Assembly (NCBI GenBank): GCA_035236585.1
Contig: CP141132.1
Location: 50,657,880 to 50,721,879 of the forward strand
Origin: Warburgia ugandensis
Lineage: Eukaryota > Streptophyta > Magnoliopsida > Canellales > Canellaceae
DNA: 64,000 nt
Direction: 5' to 3'
Shown here: positions 22,443-55,346 of the stretch, piece after piece
How the letters are laid out: the number at the start of each line of letters is the position of its first letter
Numbering within the stretch: position 1 is the first letter of the stretch
Made by a program: the position numbers and the translations under genes
The notes under the pieces: generated by a model
Told to the model about the DNA's origin: nothing
The model's database searches: none
What the model saw: the letters and a program-made list of their open reading frames with translations, nothing else

Positions 22443-22961
22443 ATTTAAAATTTAGGCCGCTGTTTCTAACTCCTATTTTCAAGCACAACTTTTAAATGGG
22501 TAGAACCTTCCAATTAACATGATCCGAATGTTAGTATATATTGACAACACCCTAAAAGCATGCAACTTCTCCGCTTTTTTATGATGAGCCCCCCTACATC
22601 ATTGATCCATATAGTTTATCAGACTATTTTAATCTTGAATATCTAATTATGCAAAAGTCATGCAAAAAGGGGCACATCTAGCACTCAAGAATGAATGTTG
22701 GATGCTCTTCAAAGCAATAGTTTACATTCAACGAAGCAAAACTCAATTTCTTGGGTGCCACTCGTTATATTTTGGCATGGCTTTTGTAACACTGGGTATC
22801 CGCGGTTAGGAGAGTCAGAAAAACAGTTTATCATGGACCAGTGACACAGCCTGGCTCAGTACACACAAGTGGAGTTGCATTACGTTGGAGTATCCTCATT
22901 CCTATTTTTGGCCGGTATTAATACATTTTAGAATGGATCAACTTTCATCTAACGGACAACG
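22443..22961 (+). promoter_or_regulatory. Upstream region of the OTP82-like gene
   Basis: About 520 bp between the Copia LTR and the PPR start codon, and therefore the likely promoter. No clear TATA box is seen. The LTR lies only about half a kilobase upstream of the coding start. Confidence 0.45.
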
Positions 22962-23040
22962 ATGGCTTCCCTTGTCATCGCCTCACCTTCTTCTTCTTTC
23001 CAACTCCTCGCTTCCTCTGATCATCCATACAAAACCTTGA
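22933..23040 (+). promoter_or_regulatory. Upstream ORF overlapping the PPR start
   Basis: An ATG at 22933 (A at -3, G at +4) opens a 35-codon frame ending at TGA 23038-23040, out of frame with and overlapping the main start at 22962. If the transcript starts upstream of 22933 this would reduce translation of the PPR protein. The transcription start is unknown. Confidence 0.4.
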
Positions 23041-25166
23041 AGCAACACCCATCGCTTTCTCTTCTTTCCAGCTGCAGAGGAATGGACCACCTCAAACAAA
23101 TCCATGCCCAGATCATAAAAACTGGCCTCCATAACACCCAGTTTGCTTTAAGCAAACTCATAGAGTTTTGCGCTGTTTCGCCCTTTGGAGATCTCTCTTA
23201 TGCTCTCTTAATCTTTGCCTCTGTTGAAGAACCAAACCAATTCATTTGGAACACAATTATCCGTGGCCATTCTTTAAGCACTGATCCGATTTTTGCAGTT
23301 GCAGTCTATGTTCAAATGCTTCTTTCCTGCGTCGAGCCCAATTCCTACACTTTCCCATTCCTTTTGAAGTCTTGCTCTCTAATTCCTGCTATTTGTGAAG
23401 GGAAACAAATCCATGCTCATGTTATGAAGCTTGGTCTTGACTCTGATGCTTTTGTACATACCTCACTAATCAATATGTATGCCAGAAATGGGAACCTGAA
23501 AGATGCTCATCGTATATTTGATAAAAGCTCTTTGAGAGATGCCGTTTCTTGTACAGCTATGATAAATGGATATGTTCTATGGAGATATATGGACGAAGCC
23601 CGTCGGGTTTTCGATGAAATGCCTATAAGAGATGTAGTTTCTTGGAATGCAATGATTTCTGGTTATGCGCAGGATGGCATGTTTGAAGATTCAATCACCT
23701 TTTTCTTAGAGATGTTGAAAGGGAACGTGGAGCCCAACGAGAGCACATTGGTTAGTGTTCTTTCTGCTTGTGCCCAGTCAGATTCCATGGAATTAGGAAT
23801 TTGGATTCACTCCTGGATTGACGAACGTGGGCTAGGATCTAATCTCCGGCTTGTTAATGCTCTAATTGATATGTATGCAAAATGTGGAGATGTGGAAACA
23901 GCTCGTGCATTATTTGATGCAATTCCTCAAAAAGATCAAGTATCTTGGAATGTTATGATTAGTGGTTATACTCACTTGAGCCACTATAAAGAAGCATTGG
24001 CTTTATTTAGGCAAATGCAGCTCTCATCTGTAGATCCGAATGAGGTGACCTTCTTGAGTGTTCTTCTAGCCTGTGCAAACTTGGGTGCTCTTCATCTTGG
24101 CAAATGGATACATATTTACATGAAGAAGCACATGGCTAATTCTACTAACATGTCACTTTACACTAGTCTCATTCACATGTATGCTAAGTGTGGAAATATA
24201 GAGTCAGCAGAACAAGTCTTTCGTGCATTAGAAGTTAAGAACCTGTCTTCTTGGAATGCAATGATATCTGGTTTTGCCATGCATGGGCATGCAAGAATGG
24301 CCTTCGAGCTTTTCTCTAGAATGACTGATGAAGGACTCCATCCTGATGATATCACCTTTGTTGGCATCTTGTCAGCTTGTAGTCATGCTGGCTTGGTCAA
24401 AGAAGGCCGTCGACATTTCAGTTCCATGATTCAAGATTATAAAATTTTACCAAAAATTCAACACTATGGCTGCATTATAGATCTGCTAGGGCGAGCTGGG
24501 CTTTTTGATGAGGCAGAGGCCCTTATAAAGACAATGGAGATGACGCCTGATGGAGCCATATGGGGATCTCTCCTTGGAGCTTGTCGAATACATGGAAATG
24601 TTGAACTAGCAGAGTTTGTTTCCAGTCACCTTCTTGAAGTGGAACCTGAAAACCCTGGAGTTTATGCCCTTCTATCAAATATTTATGCAGGAGCTGGTAG
24701 ATGGGAGGACGTGGCAAGAATAAGGACTAGATTAAATGATAGAGGGAAGAAGAAAGAACCTGGGTGTAGCTCGATTGAGGTAGATAGTGTTGTTCATGAA
24801 TTTCTTGCTGGTGATAAAGCACATCCTGAGAGTAACGAGATATATAAAATGTTGGATGAAATAGATCAACTTCTGGAGTTGGCTGGGCATGTCCCGGATA
24901 CCTCAGAAGTACTTTATGATATAAAGGAGGAGTGGAAGGAAGGTGCATTGTGTTATCATAGTGAGAGACTGGCAATTACTTATGGATTGATTAGTACAAG
25001 CCCAGGAACAACAATCAGAATAGTAAAGAATCTGCGTGTATGTGGCGACTGTCATTCAGCAACTAAGCTCATATCTAAGATATTCAATAGGGAAATTATT
25101 GCTAGAGATCGTACTCGTTTCCACCATTTCAAAGATGGTGAATGTTCATGTAATGACTACTGGTGA
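22962..25166 (+). CDS. OTP82: PPR-DYW RNA-editing factor, OTP82-like
   Basis: Intact intronless 734-residue pentatricopeptide-repeat protein of the PLS-E-DYW class. It closely follows Arabidopsis OTP82 (741 residues), for example HPSLSLLSSC, HAQIIKTGLHNT, ALSKLIEFC and the shared C-terminus, so orthology is likely. OTP82 is known to be needed for C-to-U editing at chloroplast ndhB and ndhG sites. The N-terminal about 35 residues are Ser-rich, consistent with an organelle transit peptide. PPR repeats run from about residue 60 to 560, with repeated VSWN.MISGY, LIDMYAKCG and PNE.T..SVL signatures, followed by E/E+ motifs. The DYW cytidine-deaminase domain shows HSE (666-668), CGDC (694-697), FHHF (720-723), CSC (728-730) and terminal DYW. 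All catalytic zinc ligands are present. The start is the first in-frame ATG, in good context. No co-transcribed neighbour. Confidence 0.93.
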   Translation: MASLVIASPSSSFQLLASSDHPYKTLKQHPSLSLLSSCRGMDHLKQIHAQIIKTGLHNTQFALSKLIEFCAVSPFGDLSYALLIFASVEEPNQFIWNTIIRGHSLSTDPIFAVAVYVQMLLSCVEPNSYTFPFLLKSCSLIPAICEGKQIHAHVMKLGLDSDAFVHTSLINMYARNGNLKDAHRIFDKSSLRDAVSCTAMINGYVLWRYMDEARRVFDEMPIRDVVSWNAMISGYAQDGMFEDSITFFLEMLKGNVEPNESTLVSVLSACAQSDSMELGIWIHSWIDERGLGSNLRLVNALIDMYAKCGDVETARALFDAIPQKDQVSWNVMISGYTHLSHYKEALALFRQMQLSSVDPNEVTFLSVLLACANLGALHLGKWIHIYMKKHMANSTNMSLYTSLIHMYAKCGNIESAEQVFRALEVKNLSSWNAMISGFAMHGHARMAFELFSRMTDEGLHPDDITFVGILSACSHAGLVKEGRRHFSSMIQDYKILPKIQHYGCIIDLLGRAGLFDEAEALIKTMEMTPDGAIWGSLLGACRIHGNVELAEFVSSHLLEVEPENPGVYALLSNIYAGAGRWEDVARIRTRLNDRGKKKEPGCSSIEVDSVVHEFLAGDKAHPESNEIYKMLDEIDQLLELAGHVPDTSEVLYDIKEEWKEGALCYHSERLAITYGLISTSPGTTIRIVKNLRVCGDCHSATKLISKIFNREIIARDRTRFHHFKDGECSCNDYW

Positions 25167-28546: not shown

Positions 28547-29573
28547 AGTGTTCCGTCTGTCCCTGCGTCCATGGACTCTGCAAACCGATACGTAATTATC
28601 AAGGCAGACAATGAAGAATACTCGATCTCAGCCTTCCTTAACCATCCAAACATGTAGGCCCCATGTATCAAACCTACCATCAAAATCACCACAATCTCTT
28701 TCAATTGGATCCCAAATACCTTAATGAAACTACCACCACCAAAACCAAATTATCAGTATCCTATATCTCCTCCAAAATCCATCTCAAGTTCCTAAATACC
28801 CATGTAACAACGCGAAGGGTTTTGTATTCAAAACGCAGTCGCATAAGTGGTTTTGTTGAAATAATAAAAATTCGATGTTTAGAGTCAATTCAGCAAGGCA
28901 AAACCTTCCTCTATGGCTGGTTTATGGCACAGCTAAGCTAACAAATGGTTTAATTTCTGCAAATCGATTAGTTTGAAATTAGGTTTATGCAAAGTAAAAT
29001 CTTTGCAGTGAACCTGCAAATAATTATCAATTTTTGCTGATCTCTTACAATAAGGGATTCTTTACTGATAAATTTCATCAGTCTTAATCTTTACTATAGA
29101 TGTTGGATGACACGAGAGAGAGAGAGAGAGAGAGATGTGGAAAAACTAGTGCTCTTTTGATAACGCACTGAATGGAAGAGGCGATTATATCCCCATGCTT
29201 TCCTTTCCCCTTTTTAACATTGCAACTATTAACAAATTTTGCGTTAGTTTCTGAAAGCACTTAGTCTTTAAGTGTTTGCCGACTAGTGGAAATAAAAAGC
29301 AAAAATAGGCAGTTTCATGGTGTCCTGCCTATTACCCATGGTGTGAGAATCACCAGCCTGTCTGTCTGTGTATTTATTTAGTGAATGGACTGACATCAGA
29401 TACTACGGCCGATGCAAAGAGTGCCCTGGTGATTGTGATTCCTTGTGCATAGGCCCTGCCTTGCCTCTTAATTTCTCTTTGCAATCTTTCTCATAAATAC
29501 AATCGATTCTTGAAGAAGAACAAGGAGATGATTTGGCCCATATGTAACGCTGTATGTTCAAATAAGGCTGAAT
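28545..29573. other. Intergenic DNA downstream of ENOD93-like gene
   Basis: No gene is recognised. The ORFs at 28663-28941 lack recognisable motifs. A short (GA)n run lies at about 29114-29132. Confidence 0.4.
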
Positions 29574-29579
29574 TTTATT
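29574..29579 (-). terminator. Poly(A) signal of ENOD93-like gene
   Basis: AATAAA on the minus strand, 83 nt downstream of the stop codon at 29662-29664. Confidence 0.6.
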
Positions 29580-29661
29580 CATTTACTACAATCCACATTC
29601 AGATGCGAGTCTATGAGAGAGCTAAACAGAACATTGTTCTAAAGACGATTGAGATCCAGAG

Positions 29662-32600
29662 TTAAGCTTCAATGCCGGCACTTGGACCATGGCTGAAGGA
29701 GTTCTTCCTTGCTGTTGCTAGCACAGTCTTGTCAGCTACCATGAAGTATCCGGCGCCTGCGACTGCAATTAGAGCACCAACTATCAGTAACCATTTCCAT
29801 AAATAGTACTAATACAATAATATCTTCATTCCCTCTTTCTAATTGTGAACTTCTTCTAGTTAGCTTTTGAAGGCTGTTACAATTTTAAGAGGCTTGTTCT
29901 CTTTGCATTCGTTACCTGGAAGTAATACATGGAATTTCCTCAAACGTTAACTGATTGGGATGAATTAATTGATCACATAGCTTGTATTGAAAATTTACTA
30001 CTGCTTCGAAAGTGATTTTACGTGGGATAACTACCACTAGAACATGAAACTGTCATAACATATTTCGTTGTAAAAATAAACTAATGACTTGGGACATAGC
30101 TTATCTGTGGAAGGCTGTTAAAATGAAGGTTTCGGATCATTAAGAAGGCTTTGTCCCCTGATACTTTCAACACAAAATATCAAATTAGGGTGTGCAGGCA
30201 GTAGTCCTGGATCGATCCGGGAATATAATTTCCCTAAAAATAATGCCATTTCAAATAATAGTAGTAGTAATCATGACAATGATGATAATATAATAACAAA
30301 CCTGTGGAGACGATGAGAGACTGAGCGCTGGGGTTCAGGTAGGATCTCGCCCATGGCAGTATCGTCGCGCCAGCCAACTATACATGGGAATACAGGGAAG
30401 AGCGTAACTCAATCAGAATACACCGGAAGATTTAAGTGCCCGCATGTAAAGTTCTTATATTTTGGTCACTTCACATCTATGACACCTAAGAGATTTTGAA
30501 TTCTATGCATGCATGTTTCTTAGATCAAATGGGTCCTTCGCATCCATAGCAGAACCCAGTAGGCAGGTGTATCCCACGATCAGATAAAAGCCATACATGT
30601 CTGAGGTGTATGGGGCTTTGATATGGCTTAAAATGAGAAATTTTAAACCTCCTGAACCCGAAAAGACAATGGCATTCCTAATTAATGGCTAATGCACGGT
30701 CCTAGCAGTTCCCGCATTTCTTAATTTTGATAATTGCTGATTTGCCACTCAGTTTTTGCATTTTTGCTAAAATATCGAGACATTTTAGCTTTTGCAGATT
30801 TGCCATTAAGTTTTGCAAAACTTTGCAAATTTGCCATTCCGTCAATGTTTCACCATCACATTTTTCAAAATGTCAAAAATACCCCTCTTCTCTTCTCCGT
30901 GTAAACACTAGGTTGAAAAACAGATCTGCATTTCTGTGTTCACTGTTGTGGAAGAAGACGGATGATATTCGAGTGAAGCATCCCCATGCACTCCGACGGC
31001 TCCTGTCCCTGCTCATCCTCGCCTGAAATGAGCCTGTCCTTTTGGAAGCACTAGCAGTGCTGCGGCCACAGTCGTTGCTGCCGCCGATTCAGTCACTTCC
31101 TCCACCAGAACTGCAAGCACCTCTCCCAAATCACCTAACCAGAAGTGTTGTCATTGGACCAAAACCAATTGTTATATGTGGCAGACTGTCTATATGGCCA
31201 CTGTTGAGGCATATTAAGTAAGGAAACTGAGGTAGCATTAATCAGCCCTGTCTCATTAGTAGATGCTAAGCAAGATAATTTCCAGAAAGGATCTCTGCAC
31301 ATGTAATTGAAGTACATTGTCATGTTTCCCGAATTAGTAATATCCAATCTAAAACAAGTCAACCAGATAACAAAATTAGTACAAGCTAATATTGCCATCT
31401 GACCAACCATGACAAAAAGAATAAGCAGGGTCAATGTGTTTGGTAATTTGAAACATTCATCCTCCAAAATATCATACATTAGACTTATTCTAATCCTCCC
31501 AATTATCCAGCTTTTTCTGTGTTAGTTGCTTGAAGACCAGAATAATATCAAGTTACATCTCCAAAATGACCTAAAAGCAGTGCATACATCCAATTGAACT
31601 CTATTACCTTTATGGACTGGTTTATACAAATAAGTACTACAGAAATAGATGGAGAAAAAGTGATTGACCTTTTACACATTTCTAACTATTTAGTGCATCT
31701 TCCCAAAAGTGACACAATCAGCTCCAAGATCATCAAGACACTGGCATCCTTCACTGCAGAGCATTTCATAAGCTGGAAGTTGATGACTACACCCTGTTTC
31801 TGTTACTCACTACTATTTTGGAATGAAATTAAAATTCAGCTTCATGATATGCAAAGTACAAACAGATACTGAACTTCCAGTGTATTCATCTGCCCAGTTA
31901 TAAGTTAGTTGTGTCAGTAGACAGTACATCTCCAAGAGCAGAATTTTGGACCATGATAGAAGCACTCAAGGCACACATGTCACCATGCATAAGAATAAAG
32001 GTGAGATGAACCTGACAAAGATCAATTTGAATGGTTTGTCCATGTATGGATAGTTTTGAACAATATATGATTTCTTGTCAGGACAACCTTCTGATACAAT
32101 GAAGACAGCCTACTTAGTTTTGCTTTTATGGACAACAGACCTTAGTCATGGTTTTGGGTTCTGAAAAAAAACAGAAAACAAAGCATCAGTCAAAGCATTG
32201 GAGAAGAATTCTCTTAGCTAATGCTCTGCCATTCCATCAACAATGTTTTACATAAACCAAGTTTTCATCTGCTTTCCACTTTCTCCCAATGGCGTCTGCC
32301 AACACTTCTTTTGTTTTCTTTTTTGTTTTTTTTCCCTTTTTCTTGGGTATGGTGTTGGTTACAGATGAAGCACTGATGACAGGTCTCTACCAAGGTAATT
32401 ATGTACTGACATAAGCAGGTTTCAAGTCAAGTATTTCAAAGCTCCTGTGCTTCCCTTAAATTGCCTCCAGATTGGAGAGTCAAAGCCAGGCCTTCAGCTG
32501 CAATTACAGTGTCCAGTGACATTCAAGGGAACATAATGTAATTAGTATTCAAACATCATATCTTTGCAGGTATTGATTTTGACGAGAACATGAACACCAA

Positions 32601-35600
32601 TTGTAACTAAGTAAACCACTCATTAGGTGAAAGTAGAATGTACCAATTACAAAGATTGCTTGGTTTCGTACCCATATGATGTCAATTAAGTCTTTGTGTG
32701 GCATTCAAGAGGAATGCTAAATAGACACTCCATATGAGAATGTTTTATTGTACCCATATGATGTCAATTGAACACATTTGTACAAGCGATGGCCTTATAA
32801 AAGCTAATACATGGGAAAATTTACTTTGGACAGAACATATCAATTAAAATACAACAATAAAATCCAAGTCCCAATAATTCCTACTACAGAAGCTGTAAAC
32901 CTTTGAAAGCTCCTGAATACGCAGAATATTTTTGTTAAAGTTTACAGAGAGAAGTCTGTTAAAGTTTGAACCAAACAATTTCAACTTAAAAAACACCACA
33001 TAAGGTAGCTGATAATTACCTAACATTGTCTACATGAGGCAGGTACAACAAGATTAGAACAATAAGAATAGCCTATCAATCAGAAGTGGCAAGAATTTTA
33101 TTGGCTCAGTGTACAGTTTTGAATTTTAACTAGTAATGGAAGTGTGTCAAATGCAGATCTCAAGATCCTTTTTGGTCAAAAATTTGGCAATTAGAGAATA
33201 AGTAAACCCAGTTAAATTTAAGAGTAAATCAGCAAATATTGCACCAAAATAAAGATGCCACCGTTGTCAAACTTCGGAAACAAGTTTGAGTTGACAACTT
33301 GACAGTATCAAATCCCAGGATTCAAGAACCCCATCACTCTCAGGTTTGCAGATTAGGTCCCAATTCCTCAAGCGAATTCATCAGGGAGGTGTGTAATCAT
33401 TTACAAAGTAATATCTCTACAGTGTATATAGATTATTCACGAAAATTGTTACTTCACAAGTACACTGACAAATAAAACCAACTTTTGCAAAATAGGATTT
33501 GATAAGAGCTAGATGAACTCAGAAGGTTGAGGTCTCTAGTCCAGATTCTAGATGACATTGAACTATCAATCCAGAACAGGTAGACCAGAGAAGCATAGAG
33601 CCCTAAGCGTACACCAGAGGTCAAATTCCTATACGGGATAAGTGTCATTGACTATTATTTCCTAGAGATTGTCCTTAATCTTATTCATATCTTTCACCAT
33701 TCTATATCTTCATGTTTACAGTGTCTTTATATTGTATTCTTTTCACCGAAAGGGAATCTACGTATCAAATGAAATGATTATGGTAGTCTTCATCATTTGT
33801 AACAGCATATGATGGCACATAGAACACATTTGTCCATTGCATCTTGATCAGAAAAGCCAATACACCTGAAAATAAAAGGATCCGTGCAGATAATACTCAT
33901 GAACACATTTGTCCATTGCATCTTTATCTGAAAATTGACAATCCAGTTGCTTATATATACATATGCCGGTGCTTTTTTCTTTTTTTTATAGAACAAACTA
34001 CATTTTCTCAATTCTGCTATTCTGATATGCACAAACCCAACCTTGTCATGATTGCACAACAAGTCCCTCTTTACTTAAAGTAGAAGCTCATCATTAAAAA
34101 AAAAAGAAACTGCTATTCGAATTCACTGACCATTGGAAAAAAAAGAAACTGCACATATCATAGTTCATTTGAAACTCAAAATGAGCTTCATCAGTAGTTG
34201 AGATTATCAGTAATTGGATTTTGGTGGATTTGAACCACTATTTTCTTGAGATTAATTCCCAAGCGCTCTACCACATTTGAGCTAAAGACTCAAATGCACC
34301 CACACTTAAGGTAGGTGCATTGACTTCATTACAGATAATGTTCATAATCATATTATAATCCCATTACAAGACATAAAAAACACTCATTTAAATGCAAATG
34401 ACAACAAGCAGGATCTTCATCACTTGAAGATCAGCCTTACGTGACTGTACATCACACTTAAGAGACTGTAGATTAGCCTTTAGCGACTGTGGCTGGTGAT
34501 GATATTGGTCGCACTCGATGGTCTATGCTGGTGAAGATAACGAGTGATATTCTTCATACCAAGCAAAGTAGTCACACCTCCTTGCCAGACAGCAGTGGTA
34601 ATACCTACCAGGAATTTTTACTGACCTTGATTTGGCAGCCACAGGTTCAAATCCACACGAAAATTTACGCATATTAGAAGAACTACTTGTAGAGTGCATC
34701 TTCTATCCACCTATTCACTGGCATCCACAATCATCCACATTACTTGTGTTTTACATACGGGGACCTGATCAAGTAAACTTAGTAATGGAGACTCTCATAA
34801 TTCACTTCTTAATTGCATGATAAGGTTATCTTAAGAAGCCACATAAATAAATTCATAAATGCAAGTCTACAAGTCCAAGGGAAAACAAAAATTTCAAGGA
34901 AGAAGCATCTATGAATAAATTAATATCAAATACAGCATACATTTATCTGATTCTAGCAATGCTGTCCACTTCTGTGATTTATGGAGTAAGGAACTTTGGT
35001 TGAGGTCTTTAATGTAGCATCACTTCTACAATGAGGCAAACACTCGGCAACCTAGTGCTTCATAGGTAATATGTGCCTCTTTTGTAATCTGGAAGTCCTT
35101 TCCTAAGATTCTGTTTCCTTATATGTCTCCTTCAATAGCAGTCTTCATTTGGTTCAACAAAAGAATTCAAATAAAAAAGAGCCACCAGGTTACTTAATTG
35201 AAAATGCAGCATGTAAGTGCTCCTAATGCTGCCTTTTGCAAAGCCAACATTAACATGCTGCATTAGGAAGAATCTTTACTAGATCCTATCTCTACTGTGC
35301 AAATAGGACAGTTGTGAAAGCTTTTGCGAAGTGTTTCTCTGTAATTCTAACTCTTGCAACTCTCTCATTGTTCAAAACCTTGGACATGGTTTACAAAGTT
35401 AGCTTAGCTTAGGAGTTGAAGCATGTAAGTTAACTCAGCCACTTGAGCAATCTTTTGCTCCTGATGCTCCTAAATAGGGCAGATACAATCCCAAAAGGCA
35501 GATCAGGAAAGATGAACCTTTGAGAACTAATAGACAAGCAGATGCATGCACAATGTAAACCACAATGAATTACTGAAGCCAAAACCTATATATGGAAACA

Positions 35601-37013
35601 TCAATTCTACGCATCAATGGTGGCCTAAGGGAGCTAATGCACAAGTCAAACCAGAAGGAAGCTGACATATCCTCTCAATGACATGATACAAAAATGGTCA
35701 TGGTCAGATCAACTCAAATATTAGAGATTCAAACTTTTTGAGGTTTTTATGGGACATCCAGTTGAACATCTGATTCTGCAAGAAGGTTTTGTATCAAAGA
35801 CCCAATTGCTCGAAACAACCAGAACCAAAATTTTCCCAAAACCATTTTTCTTATGGCGTATTGGCCAACCTAACTTCCTTTCTGTAGAACCAAAGAGATG
35901 ATCGTGGAGGCTTCCATTGCGCACTAGGTCACATACAATTGTCCTCTGGTGACCTTCAAATTTAGTCGTTGCAGTACAATAACCTCTTAAAGCAACAAGA
36001 TCAACATGCCTAATAATGGAAATAACCTCCACCTCATGCTTGAAGCTTGCATCCCCAGCTGCAGAGCAGTTTTTGAATCTTTTCATTGCAACTTCAGATC
36101 CATCCAATAAAATTCCCACAAAAACAAAAACAAAAACCAAAAGCAATAACAGTACCTATGGAAGATAGTAGAAATAGTTTTGGGAAAACCCAGAATCGAC
36201 GGTGTTGTGAAGGAGAACCTAGAAGAAAAAGATAAGCAATACCAGTAAACAAAGCGTTTTCAGATACTGACATGCGAAGGTGTTGTGAACTTGGAGAGAA
36301 GGGCCGAGGAGACTGGATGGAGCAACTGAGTCGGCAGCAGCAGCAGCAGCGACTGCGGCCGCGGCGCTGCTAGTGCTTCCAAAAGGATGGGCTCGTTTGA
36401 GGCGAAGACGAGCAGGGGCAGGAGTTGGCGGAGCGGGTGGGGATGCTTCATCGGAATATCGTCGGTCTTCCCCCACACCGGTGAACACAAACGCATATCT
36501 GTTTTTCAGTGCAGTGTTTACAGGGAGAAAAGCAGAGGGGTATTTTTGATATTTTGAAAAATATGACGGTGAAATATTGACGGAATGGTAAATTTGCAAA
36601 GTTTTGAAAAACTTAATAGCAAATCTAAAAAACTTAAAATGTCTGAATATTTTAGCAAAAATGCAAAAAATGAGTGGCAAATCAGAAAAAACATTAAGAA
36701 ATTTAGTGGGGAGGAAGGACACTTACAGTTGGAACTGCAGTTGCAATGGTTGCTACAACTACAGCCTTGGCCCCTGCATACGCCGCCCTATGTTCATATG
36801 TGTACAAAAGAAAACATTGTCATTTATCTCCATAACACCACAAACATTCAAAGAGTATAACATTTGAGAGATTCATGCAACAAAAAATAAGAGACCATGA
36901 GAGCAGCGCTTGGCCATGGTCAGCCTGTGGTCAAGAGAAGAGAGCCCATTTCTCTCCAGGAGAGAAGGGGAAACATTTCTCACAGCTGAGGAGGAAGAAG
37001 AAGAAGAGGCCAT
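29662..37013 (-). CDS. ENOD93: Early nodulin-93-like membrane protein
   Basis: Four exons on the minus strand: 37013-36896, 36773-36727 (acceptor uncertain), 30377-30302 and 29762-29662. The joined protein is about 113 residues, the usual ENOD93 size. Landmarks in order are a Ser-rich N-terminus, SLDHRLTMAKRCSH, AKAVVVATIATAVPT (first hydrophobic segment), ILPWARSYLNPSAQSLIVST, VAGAGYFMVADKTVLATARK (second hydrophobic segment) and a short tail ending GIEA. The family is a small two-helix membrane protein induced in nodules and by nitrogen status; a role at the mitochondrial respiratory chain has been discussed. Junctions 2-3 and 3-4 are clean GT-AG with matching phase. At junction 1-2 the upstream acceptor (36788-36790, TAG) would keep the conserved AAYAG residues but shifts the frame by one. 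The acceptor TGCAG at 36774-36778 keeps the frame and drops about five residues. The ATG at 37013 is preferred because a more distal in-frame ATG lies upstream of the TATA box. Confidence 0.85.
30303..30716 (-). other. ENOD93 exon 3 and intron sequence beside the Pack-MULE
   Basis: Exon 3 ends its acceptor side at 30377 (acceptor TAG at 30378-30380). Beyond this, to 30716, is ordinary intron without a recognised element. Confidence 0.5.
31135..31479 (-). other. Unassigned open frame in Pack-MULE interior
   Basis: A 114-codon minus-strand open frame starts 20-30 bp inside the left inverted repeat. It has a hydrophobic N-terminal stretch (LTLLILFVMVGQMAILAC) and several NxT/NxS sites. I do not recognise the family. 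It could be another captured host fragment or chance. Confidence 0.25.
34222..34300 (-). pseudogene. tRNA-like sequence (degenerate tRNA or SINE head)
   Basis: The minus strand shows TAGCTCAAATGTGGTAGAGC (D-arm/A-box), an anticodon-arm-like CTTGG...TCAAG hairpin, and GTGGTTCAAATCCAC (T-arm/B-box) at tRNA spacing. The acceptor stem does not pair and the anticodon loop length is irregular, so it is not a working tRNA. Poly(T)-containing repeats (A8-9)GAAACTGC at about 34097 and 34137 on the plus strand follow in minus-strand sense, which would suit a SINE tail. Confidence 0.5.
35850..36116 (-). pseudogene. Captured RKF3-like receptor kinase fragment
   Basis: About 89 codons of an N-lobe protein kinase domain: LLDGSEVAMKRFKNCSAAGD (with the VAxK lysine), HEVEVI (alpha-C Glu), RHVDLVALRGYCTATT, EGHQRTIVCDLVRNGSLHDH and LFG. 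This matches Arabidopsis RKF3-type LRR-receptor kinases nearly residue by residue. Similarity starts abruptly after a (TTTTTG)n-like tract and fades just after GWPIRHK, before the catalytic loop. No HRD, DFG or APE motif is present, so no active kinase can be made. Although the frame is still open (35721-36146), it is a gene fragment carried by the surrounding inverted-repeat element. Confidence 0.8.
36704..36726 (-). other. Exon 2 splice donor region
   Basis: Only 23 bp separate the placed Pack-MULE end from the ENOD93 exon 2 donor (GTAAGT at 36726-36721). Confidence 0.5.
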
Positions 37014-37097
37014 TAATGTCTCTGGATGAAGTTGGTGGAGATTGCAATCAAGCATGCTTGTAGTTTTCCGCTGAAATTTTCTTGTTAAGACGAGCGC

Positions 37098-37104
37098 ATT
37101 TATA
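37098..37104 (-). promoter_or_regulatory. TATA box of ENOD93-like gene
   Basis: Minus-strand TATAAAT, 85 bp upstream of the chosen ATG at 37013. This places a transcription start near 37070 and a 5' UTR of 50-60 nt. Confidence 0.6.
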
Positions 37105-39407
37105 AGCATTGGGATGAGTAAGTGAGTGGGTAGTGGAGGGAGAGTAGATTCAGGTTGTTTGATTATTTTGTTTAATTCTAGGGACGGGAGTCGGTTGTTT
37201 CACTTAGTTTTGTTGCTTGGGGACAGAACTTTCAATATTCATAATCTAGTACCACTGGTTTTGGAGGGAATTTCAAAGGGAAGATGTACAACCTAAAGAT
37301 CGGGAACTAATTATGCGTTCTAATCTACTTAAATACCCTTTTTATTCCTAATTGTTTGTCTAATTATTATTATTACTATTACTTAACTACTTACATGCCT
37401 AATTGGTCTTCATGTCTACACCCTTTTCAAACATAGTACAAAGCTCCCTCAACTTGTACTCTTGTCAAACATATTCCCATGACACCTTGTTCAACATGCA
37501 AGCTACTTACATCCCTTAAAGGGATACAATTCAATACCTTTAACCTGTGATTCTTACAGGAGACGCGCTTCAACTTGGCCATTGGGCTATATTGGCTTAT
37601 ATGGCCTAATTATTTGTCTAATTGTCTCTTGTTCTAGCTTTATCTAGGTATCCAAATTCATCTTTGGCAGATTACTCAATAGTTCGATTGCTAAACGAAG
37701 ATTTTAGATCTGGTCGGCATATTCTTTGGAATATGCAATCTAGATAGGTGCTATCCCAGGTCACTATACTGTGACATCTGCGCTCAGACATTTGTTGCCG
37801 TGACATTTGATGTGTGTATCCTACTTAATTAGTTAAAAATGTGATGAACATGTGCCATAAACCATCGCCAAAAGTGATGAGTAACTCTTTAGGCACTAAT
37901 TGAGATATGGCTTCAACCTAACAAAAATAGTTTCTTCAAGCAATCTGATTAGATTTCAAGTGAAACCAAATATTTAGATAACCGATATACATTAGCACTA
38001 TTTCATGCAGTTATGCTGAAGCTCCTTTCTCTTGGAGCTTTAAATAGATAGTAAGGTGGAAGAGACATCTCGGCAATTTGCACTGCTAGCGGCTGGTCGG
38101 TTCATTTGTAGTTTTTCTGTAAATCAGGGGGAATAAGATTCCTTTTGTCCAACTAGTGACTAACCATAGGTTTGGATAGAGGTGCAGATAAAACGGTGGG
38201 TTGTCGTCTGGTTATGGCATCTTTCAACTGTAACATCTCTATGATAATGACACGTGATTAATATCTAACGTCCTATATAGAAGTTGGTTTTTGTAGGAAA
38301 TGGTCTACCGACTTGCACCCACCCAAGAAAATTATCGGATTTGTTGCTTTCATTTTAGTGGGGTAAGCAGCATTGTGAACTTTGAGGATTGTTCTCATAG
38401 CCGTCTGTTATGGGCCAGTAGGATAAGGTTGTTTAACGAAAATGCTTTGGGAACGCGGGAAGATGCTGAAAATCTAGTTCTTCCTTTGCAGGATCTGACT
38501 TATTCATTATAATCGGCAGGTCTTAGAACGGGCAGATAACAAATTTTACAATCTTTGAATGGTTTTAGCCATGCCTTCTTTTTTCAAATCATCTATCGAC
38601 AAATTTTAATTTAAAATTTTAGTATTGAGAAGTCTTTGATGGGCATGCATTTTGGTACAACACCTAAAGAGAGCAGGCTAAACAAGATGAACGAGACAGA
38701 CCTCCCACATTGAAGACCTATTTAGGATGTATCTTTTTCTGCATCTGTTTCTGACATCCTGGTAGAACTCAATTGTTTAACTTGAGAGAAGTTGAAAAGA
38801 ATACCTGAACTTCGGTAAAAAAAAGGACAGTCCCAGGAAGAGTTACTGCACTAAGGCATAAGAAGAAATTGATCCTCCATTTTGTGATTGAGTGTGATTT
38901 CTTTTATAAGACATAAGCTATTCATCTTATTCAGCTTACCAAAATTAGAGAGCCTATGAAAAATAGATGCATTAGGATGATTCTAGCCTGTTGTTATTGG
39001 TCTTTGAAAAAAACAGCTAAAAAATAAGTGACTATGATTTCAACTGCACATAAAACAGATTATAAGCATCTAATGATCTAGAAATTTTTTATCCAACACA
39101 ATGAACAACTTAGATCTTCTTAAGAAGTCACCCTCTACCACAAAATGGAGGATCGACTTCTTCACACACCATAGTATGCTGACTTTTACTAGTACTCAAA
39201 AAGAAAAAAAACGACTGTTGAAAAGAACAGACGGAATTGGAAAACCAAATTCATTCTTGAACCAAACTATTTATTTTCTATGCCACATCTTAAATGAGGA
39301 GCTAAGAAAAGCATAGGCAAATTAGATCATTGATAGAATAGCTAAGATGTGGCCCATGTCCCAGAAGATTAACCTTCTACTCCCCAAATGTACATGCTAT
39401 AGTGCGT
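37105..39407. other. Intergenic DNA
   Basis: ENOD93 upstream region followed by AT-rich sequence. No gene or element termini are recognised. Confidence 0.4.
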
Positions 39408-51812: not shown

Positions 51813-54800
51813 CTATCTCTTATCACATTCATCTTGAACGTAAAATACTTCTTTTGCTTGAGATACCAAAATAAGTTGATCATTTTTATAGCCGATCCTA
51901 TTGAGGTCAACCAATGTCAATCCAAGGGCATAAGTTTTGATTCTATGTATGTGGTGTTCTACCCAATTGTACTTAAACACAACCATAGTTCTGAAAGTAT
52001 AATCCAAGGCCCAAATCTCTTTTATAACCCCATAATAAAAATCATCCGCCATTATTAGCATGTTATCCTTTGAATTGGAAAAGAATGTAGCATTGGCAAT
52101 TAAGCTAACTCGATTATTTTGTTACACTCTTGAGTTATCATGGTCTTTTGTATAAAAGTGATAACCATTGATGGCATATCTAGCATATTTTATTACTTTT
52201 GGTCGTGGTCCAATTGCTATCCAAACCCTAATATATCATTGCCTGTTACTTCTCCCTGGCCTTGAATCTGTGTATGTTCATATTAAATAATTAGGTAAGA
52301 TTATATATATATATATATACAGAATGTAGGCTTTTAATTAATATTGAGTGAGAATTCTTTCATTTTACCTTCTTATGCAGCCAATTAATGAAAGTGTGAC
52401 GATGTTCAAATTGTAGCCACTTCTATTTCTTTCATAACTTGGATTCTTCGCTTTAAGTGCATCCATATGTTCACTACACACACACACAAATTAATATAGT
52501 AATCAAAGAAAATGTAACCATTAAGAATTAAATTATACATAAGTGCATGCATGATCAACTTACTCAATGTATGGTTGGAGTTCACCAACATTTTGCAACA
52601 CAAAAAGATGCGCTTGGTCCCATTCTTTATAGTCAACGATCGATACATGATCACTCAATAAAGGTTCGCCAACCTTGGCATCATGAAATGCAATTGATTG
52701 TTTCTTTCTTAGGATTCTAATTGCATCCACCTGCTAAGTACTTTGTACAAAACTCCACTGTTTCCTCTATAATATAACATTTGGATATACACCCCTCTGG
52801 CTAGTTGTGATTACGTACTTGCCCTTTTAAAATTTTCATGTACCTCTTAAATGGGTACATTCAACTCAGGTAAACTAGCCCATAGGGTCTGACGTCAATA
52901 ATGAGGTGCATTGTTAAGTTTATCATAATGGCAAAGATGGATGGTTGGAATATTGTCTCAAGCTCACATAAAGGTGTCACTAGATGACCTTGAATTTCTT
53001 GTAATATTAAAACATCCACCACCTTCTTGCACAAAGCATTAAAGAAGTAGCAGAATTTTGTAATAGCTCCCCTAACTTTGTCTAGTAACATCGAATGTAT
53101 TGCTACAGGAAGTAATTATTGCATCAATGCATGGCAATCATAGGACTTCATCCCCTACAATTTCAGCTCTTTCAAGGAGAAAATGTTTTTAAAGTTTGAA
53201 AAGTAGTCATCTAGTAATTTGAGCTTGAATAGGGTTTTACATATCATTCTCCTATCCTCTCTGTTAATTGTATAATTTGCCTTAGGAAAATATGTTCCTC
53301 GAGTGCCCCTATCCCCTAGGTGCAACTTCCTCTTCAAACCCATGTTCATAATATCCATTCGGGCTGCAAGTCCATCCTTTGTTTTTCCTAGGATATTATG
53401 TAAGGAACCAATCAAGGTTTCATATACATTCTTCTCAATGTGCATGACATCAAGTACATGGGTAGATGTAGTAATTTCTATTATGCCAAACAAAAGAATA
53501 TTGATTTCTTCTTCCAACAACTTTTACAATTACTTTTACCTACACGTTTACTTGATTTCTTCTTTCCCCGCAAGATATTAATGTTTTCAACCTGCTTCAA
53601 GACTTGTCATCCTATCAAGATCTTTGGAGGTGTCCTTGTCTTTACATTCCTATTAAATTCTTCCTTCTTAAAACGATATAGATGGTCTCTATGTAACCTT
53701 CTTCTGTGCCTAAGGAATGTCATTTTCCAACCATGTTTAAGTTGTACAATACATGTTTGATCACTACAGATAGCACAAGCATTGTATCACTTCACTGTGC
53801 ATCTAGACAAATTATCGTCTGTATCTGTAGGGAAGTCACTTATTGTTCATAATAGTATAGTCTTTAGGGTGAATGACTCTTTCCTGTATGCGTTGTATGC
53901 TTTAACTCCTATGTCCCATAATGTCTCATGATCATCGATCAAGGGAGACATGTACATTTCAATGTCATTCCTTGGCTACTTTGGACTCGATATCAACATA
54001 GTTAGCATCATGAACTTCCTTTTCATGCATAGAGATGGTGGGAGGTTGTAACAAACTAATATAATGGGCTAACAACTATGCTTGTTGTTGATAGAACCAT
54101 GAGGATTAATCCCATTTGCAGATAATGCAAGTCATAGGTTTCTATGTTCTTTACCAAAATTAGGCCACATGAAGTCTACAAACTTTCATGTTGGGCTATC
54201 TACTAGATGGTGTGAAAAGCTATCAGTTACTCTGTCCTTGGCATGCCACACTAATTTCTTTGCTATTTTTTATTTATACAAAACATTCTTTTGAACTTTG
54301 GAATAGGGGGAAAGTACCATAGAAACTTTCTAGGAATGCTTGTAACTGTCTCAGTTGAATTCTTCTTTAACTTCTATCTTGGCGGTCCACAAGTTGGACA
54401 TGCAGTTTTATCCTTGTGCTCCTTCCTATACAAGATGCAATCATTAGGACAAACATGTATCTCCTCATACTTCAACCCTAGTGCAGCCAAGGTTTTCTTT
54501 GCCTCCTATGTGGACCTTGCTAATTTATTATCCTTCAATAGCATCTTACCCACTACTATCAAGACTTTTGTAAAACCTTGATCTGAAAAACCAAATCTTG
54601 ATTTCACTTTGTAAGTTCTACCACTATGGATAGCTTGGTATAATCTTTATACTGAGGATACAACGGCTCATCAGCTTCCTCTAATGTAGTATGGAATTGT
54701 TTAGGTCATCCTAGAAGTCATCATATGCATCTCGACGCATCAGTATAGCTGTACTATCTCCAACACTTCCTACAGTGTCATATCTTTTAGGCCTTGTTAA

Positions 54801-55046
54801 GGGCCTATGTGAAAATTGTTCTCCATGCCAAATCCATGGGTGGTAGCTTTCATCGATTCCATTGAAGCACAAGTATTCTCTCAACACCCCTATAGTTAAT
54901 TTTTTCAAGTTTTCACATTTTGAGTATGAATAATACATGCAATTGCGATCAATACCTGCCTTAAGTGTGAACTTTATGAAAATTTTTGTTCCCTCATCAT
55001 ATTCTTTTGATCTTCTTATCATAGTTATCCAAGCATATTTTGTCAT
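51813..55046 (-). pseudogene. CACTA tnp2-type transposase remnant
   Basis: Minus-strand order matches plant CACTA TNPD/tnp2 proteins. The transposase-associated domain starts MTKYAWITMIRRSKEYDEG at 55046 and includes ...HPWIWHGE (to about 54830). The tnp2 catalytic region follows in broken frames (TISDFPTDT..., HRRRLHRDH about 53690, LDVMHIEKNVYETLIGSLH about 53450). Next are DUF4218-type FCYFFNALCKKV and MINLTMHLI (53091-52861), and a DUF4216-type domain YGVIKEIWALDY plus LVDLNRIGYKNDQLILVSQA (52061-51813). Several frameshifts and stops separate the blocks, so it is dead. The encoded family cuts and re-inserts CACTA elements. Confidence 0.88.
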
Positions 55047-55051
55047 TATCA

Positions 55052-55346
55052 CAAGAAATTGAAGCAAGTTTGTGTGGAGACATGTTAGACATGAAAAGAT
55101 TAGGTTAGGCATTTGACCAAACACACACTAGGTATACAAGAATTAAAAGTATTTGAAATAACTACATTTCATGAAAATTTTCAATTAACAATGAAAAAAC
55201 AGACAAGAAATTGAAGCAAATATGTGTGGAGACATGTTAGACATGAAAGGATTAGGTTATGCATTTGACCAAACACTAGGTATACAAGAATTAAAAGAAT
55301 TTGAATAACTACATTTCATGAAAATTTTCAATTAACAATGAAAAAA
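55052..55346. repeat. Tandem duplication of about 150 bp
   Basis: CAAGAAATTGAAGCAA..TTTCAATTAACAATGAAAAAA occurs twice with a 152-bp offset (55052 and 55204). Copies differ by a few substitutions and small indels. It covers the 5' edge of the transposase reading frame. Confidence 0.88.

Follow-up and report, generated by a model that had tools for sequence, protein, structure and literature searches.

We analysed a stretch of 64,000 nucleotides of the Warburgia ugandensis genome (contig CP141132.1, positions 50,657,880 to 50,721,879; below, 'the window', with position 1 at its first letter). The window is part of the contig designated C7, and the genome searched amounted to 1.12 Gb in 14 contigs. 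Between positions 30735 and 36694, within intron 2 of an ENOD93-type gene, the window very probably holds an inserted non-autonomous Mutator-like element (MULE) of the gene-carrying type known as Pack-MULE, with the history proposed below. As read from the DNA, its cargo comprises pieces of at least two host genes together with the family's own interior, which includes an open reading frame (ORF) resembling a GRF zinc finger. A preliminary description had proposed that an ENOD93 intron contains a Mutator-like element that captures genes, and long terminal inverted repeats (TIRs), 9-bp target duplications at sister copies, a parent of the captured kinase piece elsewhere in the genome and empty sites in paralogs all agree with it. 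The element is in kind an ordinary Pack-MULE, a well-documented example of a known transposon type; less ordinary are the pairing of the GRF-like ORF with a transposase, and the occurrence of a captured piece in copies with transposase remnants.

The ENOD93-type gene lies on the minus strand and has four exons, namely exon 1 (36896..37013, ATG at 37013), exon 2 (36727..36773), exon 3 (30302..30377) and exon 4 (29662..29762, terminating at a stop codon), separated by GT..AG introns of 122, 6349 and 539 bp. Its uninterrupted translation of 113 residues matches the ENOD93 family of Pfam (PF03386, E = 1.1e-26). Intron 2 (30378..36726), which contains the element, is in phase 0, exons 1 and 2 totalling 165 nt. 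The same profile matched at least seven exons in the genome, the window's own exons not being among the matches listed, which are a partial set. Two paralogs on C8, about 22 kb apart (one formed by loci L058 and L062, the other by L063), align to both flanks of the intron, over 29500-30730 in pieces at 75 to 80% identity and over 36690-37200 at 77 to 82%. The empty site reads GCATTTCCTAATTTTGAGAATGTAGCAAGAAATTTAGTGGGG in L058 and only slightly differently in L063, as against GCATTTCTTAATTTTGATAAT, the element and then TAAGAAATTTAGTGGGG in the window. At the remaining ENOD93 match loci (C8:1689... and C7:6809...), the only hits to the intron flanks were of 21 bp or less. That the C8 paralogs keep both flanks without the element argues for an insertion, and judged by these two empty sites the element in intron 2 is one.

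Because of the same empty sites, the host sequence can be seen to end at about 30734 and to restart at about 36695. Together with the terminal sequence of the family, they place the whole element at 30735..36694, give or take a few bases. The interval of 30717..36703 proposed earlier thus contained a real element but ran into host DNA by about 18 bp on the left and 9 bp on the right, and the right end, which had been put at about 23 bp from the splice donor, lies about 32 bp from it, because host sequence restarts at about 36695.

A gapped alignment of the flanks of the interval (30716-31108 against 36702-36313) had a score of 454, against no more than 32 for 200 block shuffles and no more than 34 for 160 further comparisons inside the window. 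The two inverted repeats of about 0.4 kb that had been described as facing each other across 6 kb therefore align significantly. After refinement the arms span 30737-31108 and 36313-36685 and agree at 316 of 369 aligned positions (about 370 bp, 86%), a length within the 100 to 500 bp typical of Pack-MULEs. The left TIR (30737..31108) has lost the family's terminal GGGTTTT, and the right TIR extends over 36313..36694. The first alignment had overrun the family terminus by 10 bp (ATTTCTTAAT / ATTAAGAAAT), and an extended TIR, with the flank of one end copied to the other end, was considered; the paralogs show host sequence there, and on this comparison the 10-bp inverted match just outside the terminus is host sequence that matches by chance.

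The right arm was then used to search the genome. With the best 40 of 576 candidates scored, 49 matches were listed, of which 24 end at query position 379 (window 36691) and 30 at positions 378 to 380. The TIRs of the family terminate in GGGTTTTTTGC, and its intact ends read GGGTTTTTTGCTGATTTGCCACTC or a near variant. Target duplications were sought at six facing TIR pairs. The C10 sister has a 9/9 duplication, TATCCATAA, directly flanking its GGG-type ends, and the C13 copy another, TTAAATTTT, directly outside ends of the same type. The C9 copy has a duplication of 8/9, and in a pair on C1 (TACAAATCA/TACAAATTA) 8 of 9 bases are equal, by eye on the printed ends. A duplication of 9 to 11 bp, which the preliminary description had proposed as a check, is therefore found at the level of the family, exactly so in the C10 and C13 sisters; none could be read at the window copy. 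Because the left GGGTTTT is lost, a few host bases differ and no duplication is readable, insertion at the window copy rests on the empty sites and the sister copies. One further candidate pair, C3:91617243/91666883, was dropped since its ends face the wrong way.

The first captured piece is a segment of the N-lobe of an RKF3-like kinase (35849..36117; 269 bp, 89 open codons), on the minus strand like ENOD93, as had been noted. Its ORF matches PF07714 at 4.6e-6. The region 35800-36150 matches eight places in the genome, itself included. Two of them, C3:11010138 (96%) and C1:93257677 (92%), match exactly 35849-36117 with identical edges, which bears out the sharp edges described at the outset. 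They lie in genes that we take to be RKF3-like, with open frames of 628 and 666 residues and SPARK and kinase domains. The C1 gene is a paralog of the likely donor on C3: of the 18 sites that distinguish the two genes, 14 show the C3 base in the window, and the intact C3 gene (C3:11010138-11010406) is likely the parent. A TIR-like match of the element's family (75 to 77%; L013, 6300-6466, near C1:93257677) was also observed about 0.3 kb upstream of the C1 ORF.

The other matches of the kinase piece are elements, on C10, C13, C9 and C6, so that the genome search suggested earlier yielded both an intact parent gene and sisters. In all four full copies (window, C10, C13 and C9), element and gene sequences diverge at identical positions; the sequence upstream of the piece is different in C13 and C9 from that in the window and C10. 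In the C6 copy (C6:71873579-71901416) the two halves of the piece are about 27.6 kb apart and overlap by 8 query bases, as expected of a nested insertion.

One could propose that ENOD93 uses all or some of the kinase piece as a functional cassette exon, which would give a chimeric protein. The piece lies on the ENOD93 strand, its frame is open in the window alone among the four full copies, and it differs least from the C3 gene there (11/269, against 17/268 in C9, 22/269 in C10 and 24/269 in C13). In addition, intron 2 is in phase 0, and the junction CCATAG/GTACTG with a downstream GTATGT would, by eye, bound an in-frame exon of 219 bp and 73 codons (35937-36155). Against this, an open frame so close to the parent is expected by chance: in neutral simulations (substitutions only, indels being absent from the model) 84% of frames with 7 changes and 76% of those with 11 stayed open, and the open frame was accordingly rejected as a signal of selection. 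Four of seven polarised changes alter the protein (by eye), with no sign of purifying selection, and the piece is without most of the kinase domain. A phase-compatible cassette exon may thus be drawn on paper, with no support for its use, and we regard its working as very improbable.

The full-length sister on C10 (C10:50521000-50530999) aligns to 30734-36696, at 88 to 91% in the main pieces, 88 to 90% over the two main alignments, and with a gap in its left arm. This bears on the possibility that the two arms are separate short MULE-type insertions flanking unrelated intron DNA, for which the abundance of TIR-like matches (at least 49, from the best 40 of 576 candidates) and the unreadable duplication at the window copy might speak. 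On C10, however, the same arms enclose the same interior, and the 9 bp just outside the two ends form a perfect duplication, which already refutes separate insertions, and the interior is absent from the two ENOD93 paralogs. We consider this possibility even less credible than the cassette exon, and retain a single Pack-MULE.

The kinase piece, the one piece of cargo named in the preliminary description, makes up little of the interior: a larger TPR-like piece (1.4 kb) and a larger MULE remnant (1.7 kb) had been missed. The TPR-like piece (32439..33825, minus strand) consists of five colinear stretches, 87 to 98% identical to parts of C3:89226475-89229066 (alignments of 81, 157, 38, 163 and 888 columns). 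This C3 locus has exon-like stretches on the minus strand, one of which matches TPR_2 at 4.6e-4 (20.5 bits, against a cut-off of 27), while no Pfam hit came from two others that were scanned. By our own reading of the frames, the captured stretches cover both exon and intron sequence, and because intron sequence is kept the piece is taken to have been captured as DNA. Capture of a spliced copy (cDNA) had been considered, as the gaps looked like removed introns, and was rejected on the same frame reading, in which coding sequence is missing at one gap. Each of the four gaps may reflect either sequence lost from the element or sequence gained by the gene. Both host gene pieces thus have parents elsewhere (C3:11010138 for the kinase, C3:89226475-89229066 for the TPR-like piece). 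Similarly hard to credit is an origin of the kinase piece as a retrocopy, or as what is left of a kinase gene broken in place: the parent's frame runs uninterrupted across it, so that cDNA and DNA would look alike for that piece alone, but element and gene diverge on both sides of it, the adjacent TPR-like piece retains intron sequence, the piece is complete and identically bounded in three further copies of the element, and the kinase genes on C3 and C1 are intact, the piece being contiguous with no RKF3 gene broken in place, so that this second version is already refuted.

To the left of the TPR-like piece lies a block (31109..32438) common to the C10 sister and to a 2.7-kb element on C12. 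Part of it, 31642-32028, also matches C13:7093079-7093721 (74 and 87%), which lies 0.8 kb downstream of a PADRE-domain ORF (PF14009, 1.7e-19), and is likely a capture on the strength of this match. For 31109-31641, no source beyond C10 and C12 was found among the matches listed (best 40 of 276 candidates scored). The C12 relative (L051, C12:52993500-52999400) shares only the left third of the window element, and its TIRs, of about 720 bp, consist of the left arm and the adjoining left block, inverted at the right end. Gene capture is not limited to the lineage of the window copy, because an element of the same TIR family on C5 (L053) carries pieces of an MFS transporter (PF07690, 1.9e-6; 27.5 bits, below the cut-off) and of a PPR gene (PF13041, 5.6e-7).

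The rest of the interior is a MULE remnant (33822..35556) common to other elements. With the best 40 of 276 candidates scored, it recurred at no fewer than 35 further loci, a count from which the window's own match, the first row for C10 and eight rows representing second pieces of loci already included were removed. The transposase profile PF10551 was searched in the genome (best 150 of 478 candidates scored, 150 matches), and a match lies within 30 kb at 11 of the 35 loci, always on the same strand and side, where 0.28 would be expected; at the other 24 there is none within that distance among the matches listed. Similarly, 5 of 36 TIR places have a PF10551 match within 15 kb (0.14 expected).

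The remnant includes the decayed GRF zinc-finger-like ORF (34376..34657, minus strand, with a further coding stretch at 34686-34730), which is interrupted by stops in the window copy. In the C9 copy it has 95 residues and matches PF06839 at 2.1e-5 (24.9 bits, cut-off 25.9); the GRF-like ORF of the C13 copy gave no Pfam hit up to E 0.1. A genome search with this ORF (best 150 of 204 candidates scored) gave 151 matches, of which 150 are listed, some few rows being two pieces of one copy. With a transposase piece of the C13 copy as the other query (best 150 of 272 candidates scored), a transposase match was found within 10 kb of 91 of these 150 (0.4 expected), at a median distance of 2.1 kb, and all 91 pairs are convergent, as are the two genes of MuDR-like elements; the other 59 have none within 10 kb among the matches listed. 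On account of this fixed order and strand, capture of the GRF block from a host gene was rejected, and the MULE's own interior is preferred. Pairwise dN/dS among nine GRF copies ranged from 0.30 to 1.87 and was below 1 in 32 of 36 pairs, and several copies contain stops, which likely points to past constraint followed by decay. No report of a pairing of GRF with MULEs or other transposable elements was found in the open-access literature searched. On these data, the GRF ORF is possibly the second gene of the element's family.

No MULE transposase domain was detected in the five element ORFs scanned with Pfam, and the element contains none of the 150 PF10551 places, nor of the 150 places matched by the transposase piece of the C13 copy (best 150 of 272 candidates scored). 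The absence of transposase stated in the preliminary description holds for the ORFs and places covered here, with remnants possible among the unscored candidates. The window and C10 copies have no transposase match among those listed; the TPR-like piece and left block occupy the place to the left of the MULE remnant. Among the kinase-bearing copies, that on C13 has a PF10551 hit (25119502) between TIRs at 25116067 and about 25128946, and that on C9 has a transposase-piece match (C9:18782927) between its TIRs. The TIRs of the window element are thus akin to those of elements that encoded a transposase, both with stops. The third, on C6, has a transposase match 22.8 kb beyond its MULE-remnant block and probably also holds a transposase remnant between its ends.

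These observations suggest the following history. An ancestor that carried a transposase would have captured the kinase piece, and the lineage leading to the copies in the window and on C10 would then have lost the transposase region, where the TPR-like piece and left block now lie. Mobilised by a transposase supplied in trans, the element would have entered the ENOD93 gene after its split from the C8 paralogs. Today it would be a passenger, spliced out of the ENOD93 pre-mRNA, an intron filler with no function of its own. We put forward tentatively, at slightly under an even chance, the wider proposal of a MULE family with two genes, in which the one convergent to the transposase encodes a GRF-type zinc finger (a position like that of mudrB, with a different protein), and which picks up host pieces while still encoding transposase, the kinase capture having preceded the loss of autonomy. 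Our confidence in this is lower because the transposase pieces are not mutual closest relatives and the far end of the C6 copy was not found.

Several points weigh against parts of this account. Absence of the element from the C8 paralogs could in principle reflect loss, and the PADRE-linked stretch could be common for reasons other than capture. Between the two 60-bp end regions of the window copy, whose left terminus is truncated, no direct repeat has 8 or 9 of 9 bases equal, and among the six facing pairs those on C12 and at C7:64174338 showed no target duplication. For the C6 copy, the far TIR could not be placed. Stops occur in the transposase remnants of the sister copies, and a working autonomous copy was not identified. 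The best of the listed matches to the transposase piece of C13 is C1:22432258 (73%), ahead of C6 (70%) and C9 (67%), and nested or exchanged transposase regions are for this reason possible. Finally, the order of gains and losses was deduced from five copies without a tree.

MULEs make duplications of 9 to 11 bp and typically have TIRs of 100 to 500 bp, and Pack-MULEs are non-autonomous MULEs with genes or gene fragments (PMC3310237; Jiang 2004 is cited on them in PMC13317346); cargo from more than one locus has been reported for rice, Arabidopsis and maize elements (PMC8903248). Like the Pack-MULEs of rice and other plants, the window element is non-autonomous and has long TIRs, sisters with 9-bp duplications, and several host gene pieces whose parents persist. 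Unlike them, it keeps a large stretch of transposon interior beside the captured pieces, and its insertion is shown through paralogous empty sites, without a readable duplication.

Extra ORFs are known in MULEs, among them ULP in reverse orientation (PMC2528002; PMC13317346), mudrB and others (PMC6446971). The family resembles the KI-MULEs, or Kaonashi, and the ULP-carrying MULEs in that a transposase-bearing MULE has a further ORF reversed to it; it differs in that this ORF is GRF zinc-finger-like and not a ULP protease, for which the two GRF-like ORFs scanned (C9 and C13 copies) gave no hit, and in its long TIRs, the Arabidopsis KI-MULEs being without TIRs (PMC2528002; PMC13317346). With maize MuDR and the MUDR clade (PMC6446971; PMC3310237) it shares two convergent genes, transposase and a second one, 9-bp duplications and long TIRs. 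It would differ in its second ORF, which has the features of a GRF zinc finger; in PMC6446971, 'grf' has no occurrence and the MUDR rows give 'PMD' in antisense. Soybean CACTA elements also contain captured host gene pieces, which are spliced into transcripts (PMC1947982); alternative splicing is the subject there, whereas the element described here is a MULE.

When the intronic copy was compared with other copies (L009, L010, L011 and L014), it had fewer derived changes in all seven outgroup comparisons (for example, 73 versus 111). Six of these were tested, giving P < 0.01 in five and P = 0.15 in one; the seventh gave 44 versus 51, and the comparisons are not independent. C-to-T and G-to-A changes were fewer in six of the seven and equal in one. 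Perhaps this reflects less methylation within a transcribed gene.

Elsewhere in the window, a single uninterrupted frame at 22959-25163 (plus strand) encodes a PPR protein of 735 residues with a DYW deaminase domain (PF14432, 7.2e-41). A transposase-associated domain (PF13963, 4.7e-11) was found at 54714-55127 on the minus strand. The neighbouring ORF on that strand, 53158-53523, gave no Pfam hit; it has what we take to be the look of a CACTA transposase, and the two are probably the remnant of a CACTA element.

Through the insertion, intron 2 of the ENOD93-type gene went from about 0.4 to 6.3 kb. A single genome here displays the capture together with the parents, the sister copies, the duplications and the empty sites. 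That copies with and without transposase remnants share the captured kinase piece bears on the time at which MULEs acquire gene pieces, and the data indicate that a GRF zinc-finger ORF may be a regular partner of the MULE transposase in this plant.

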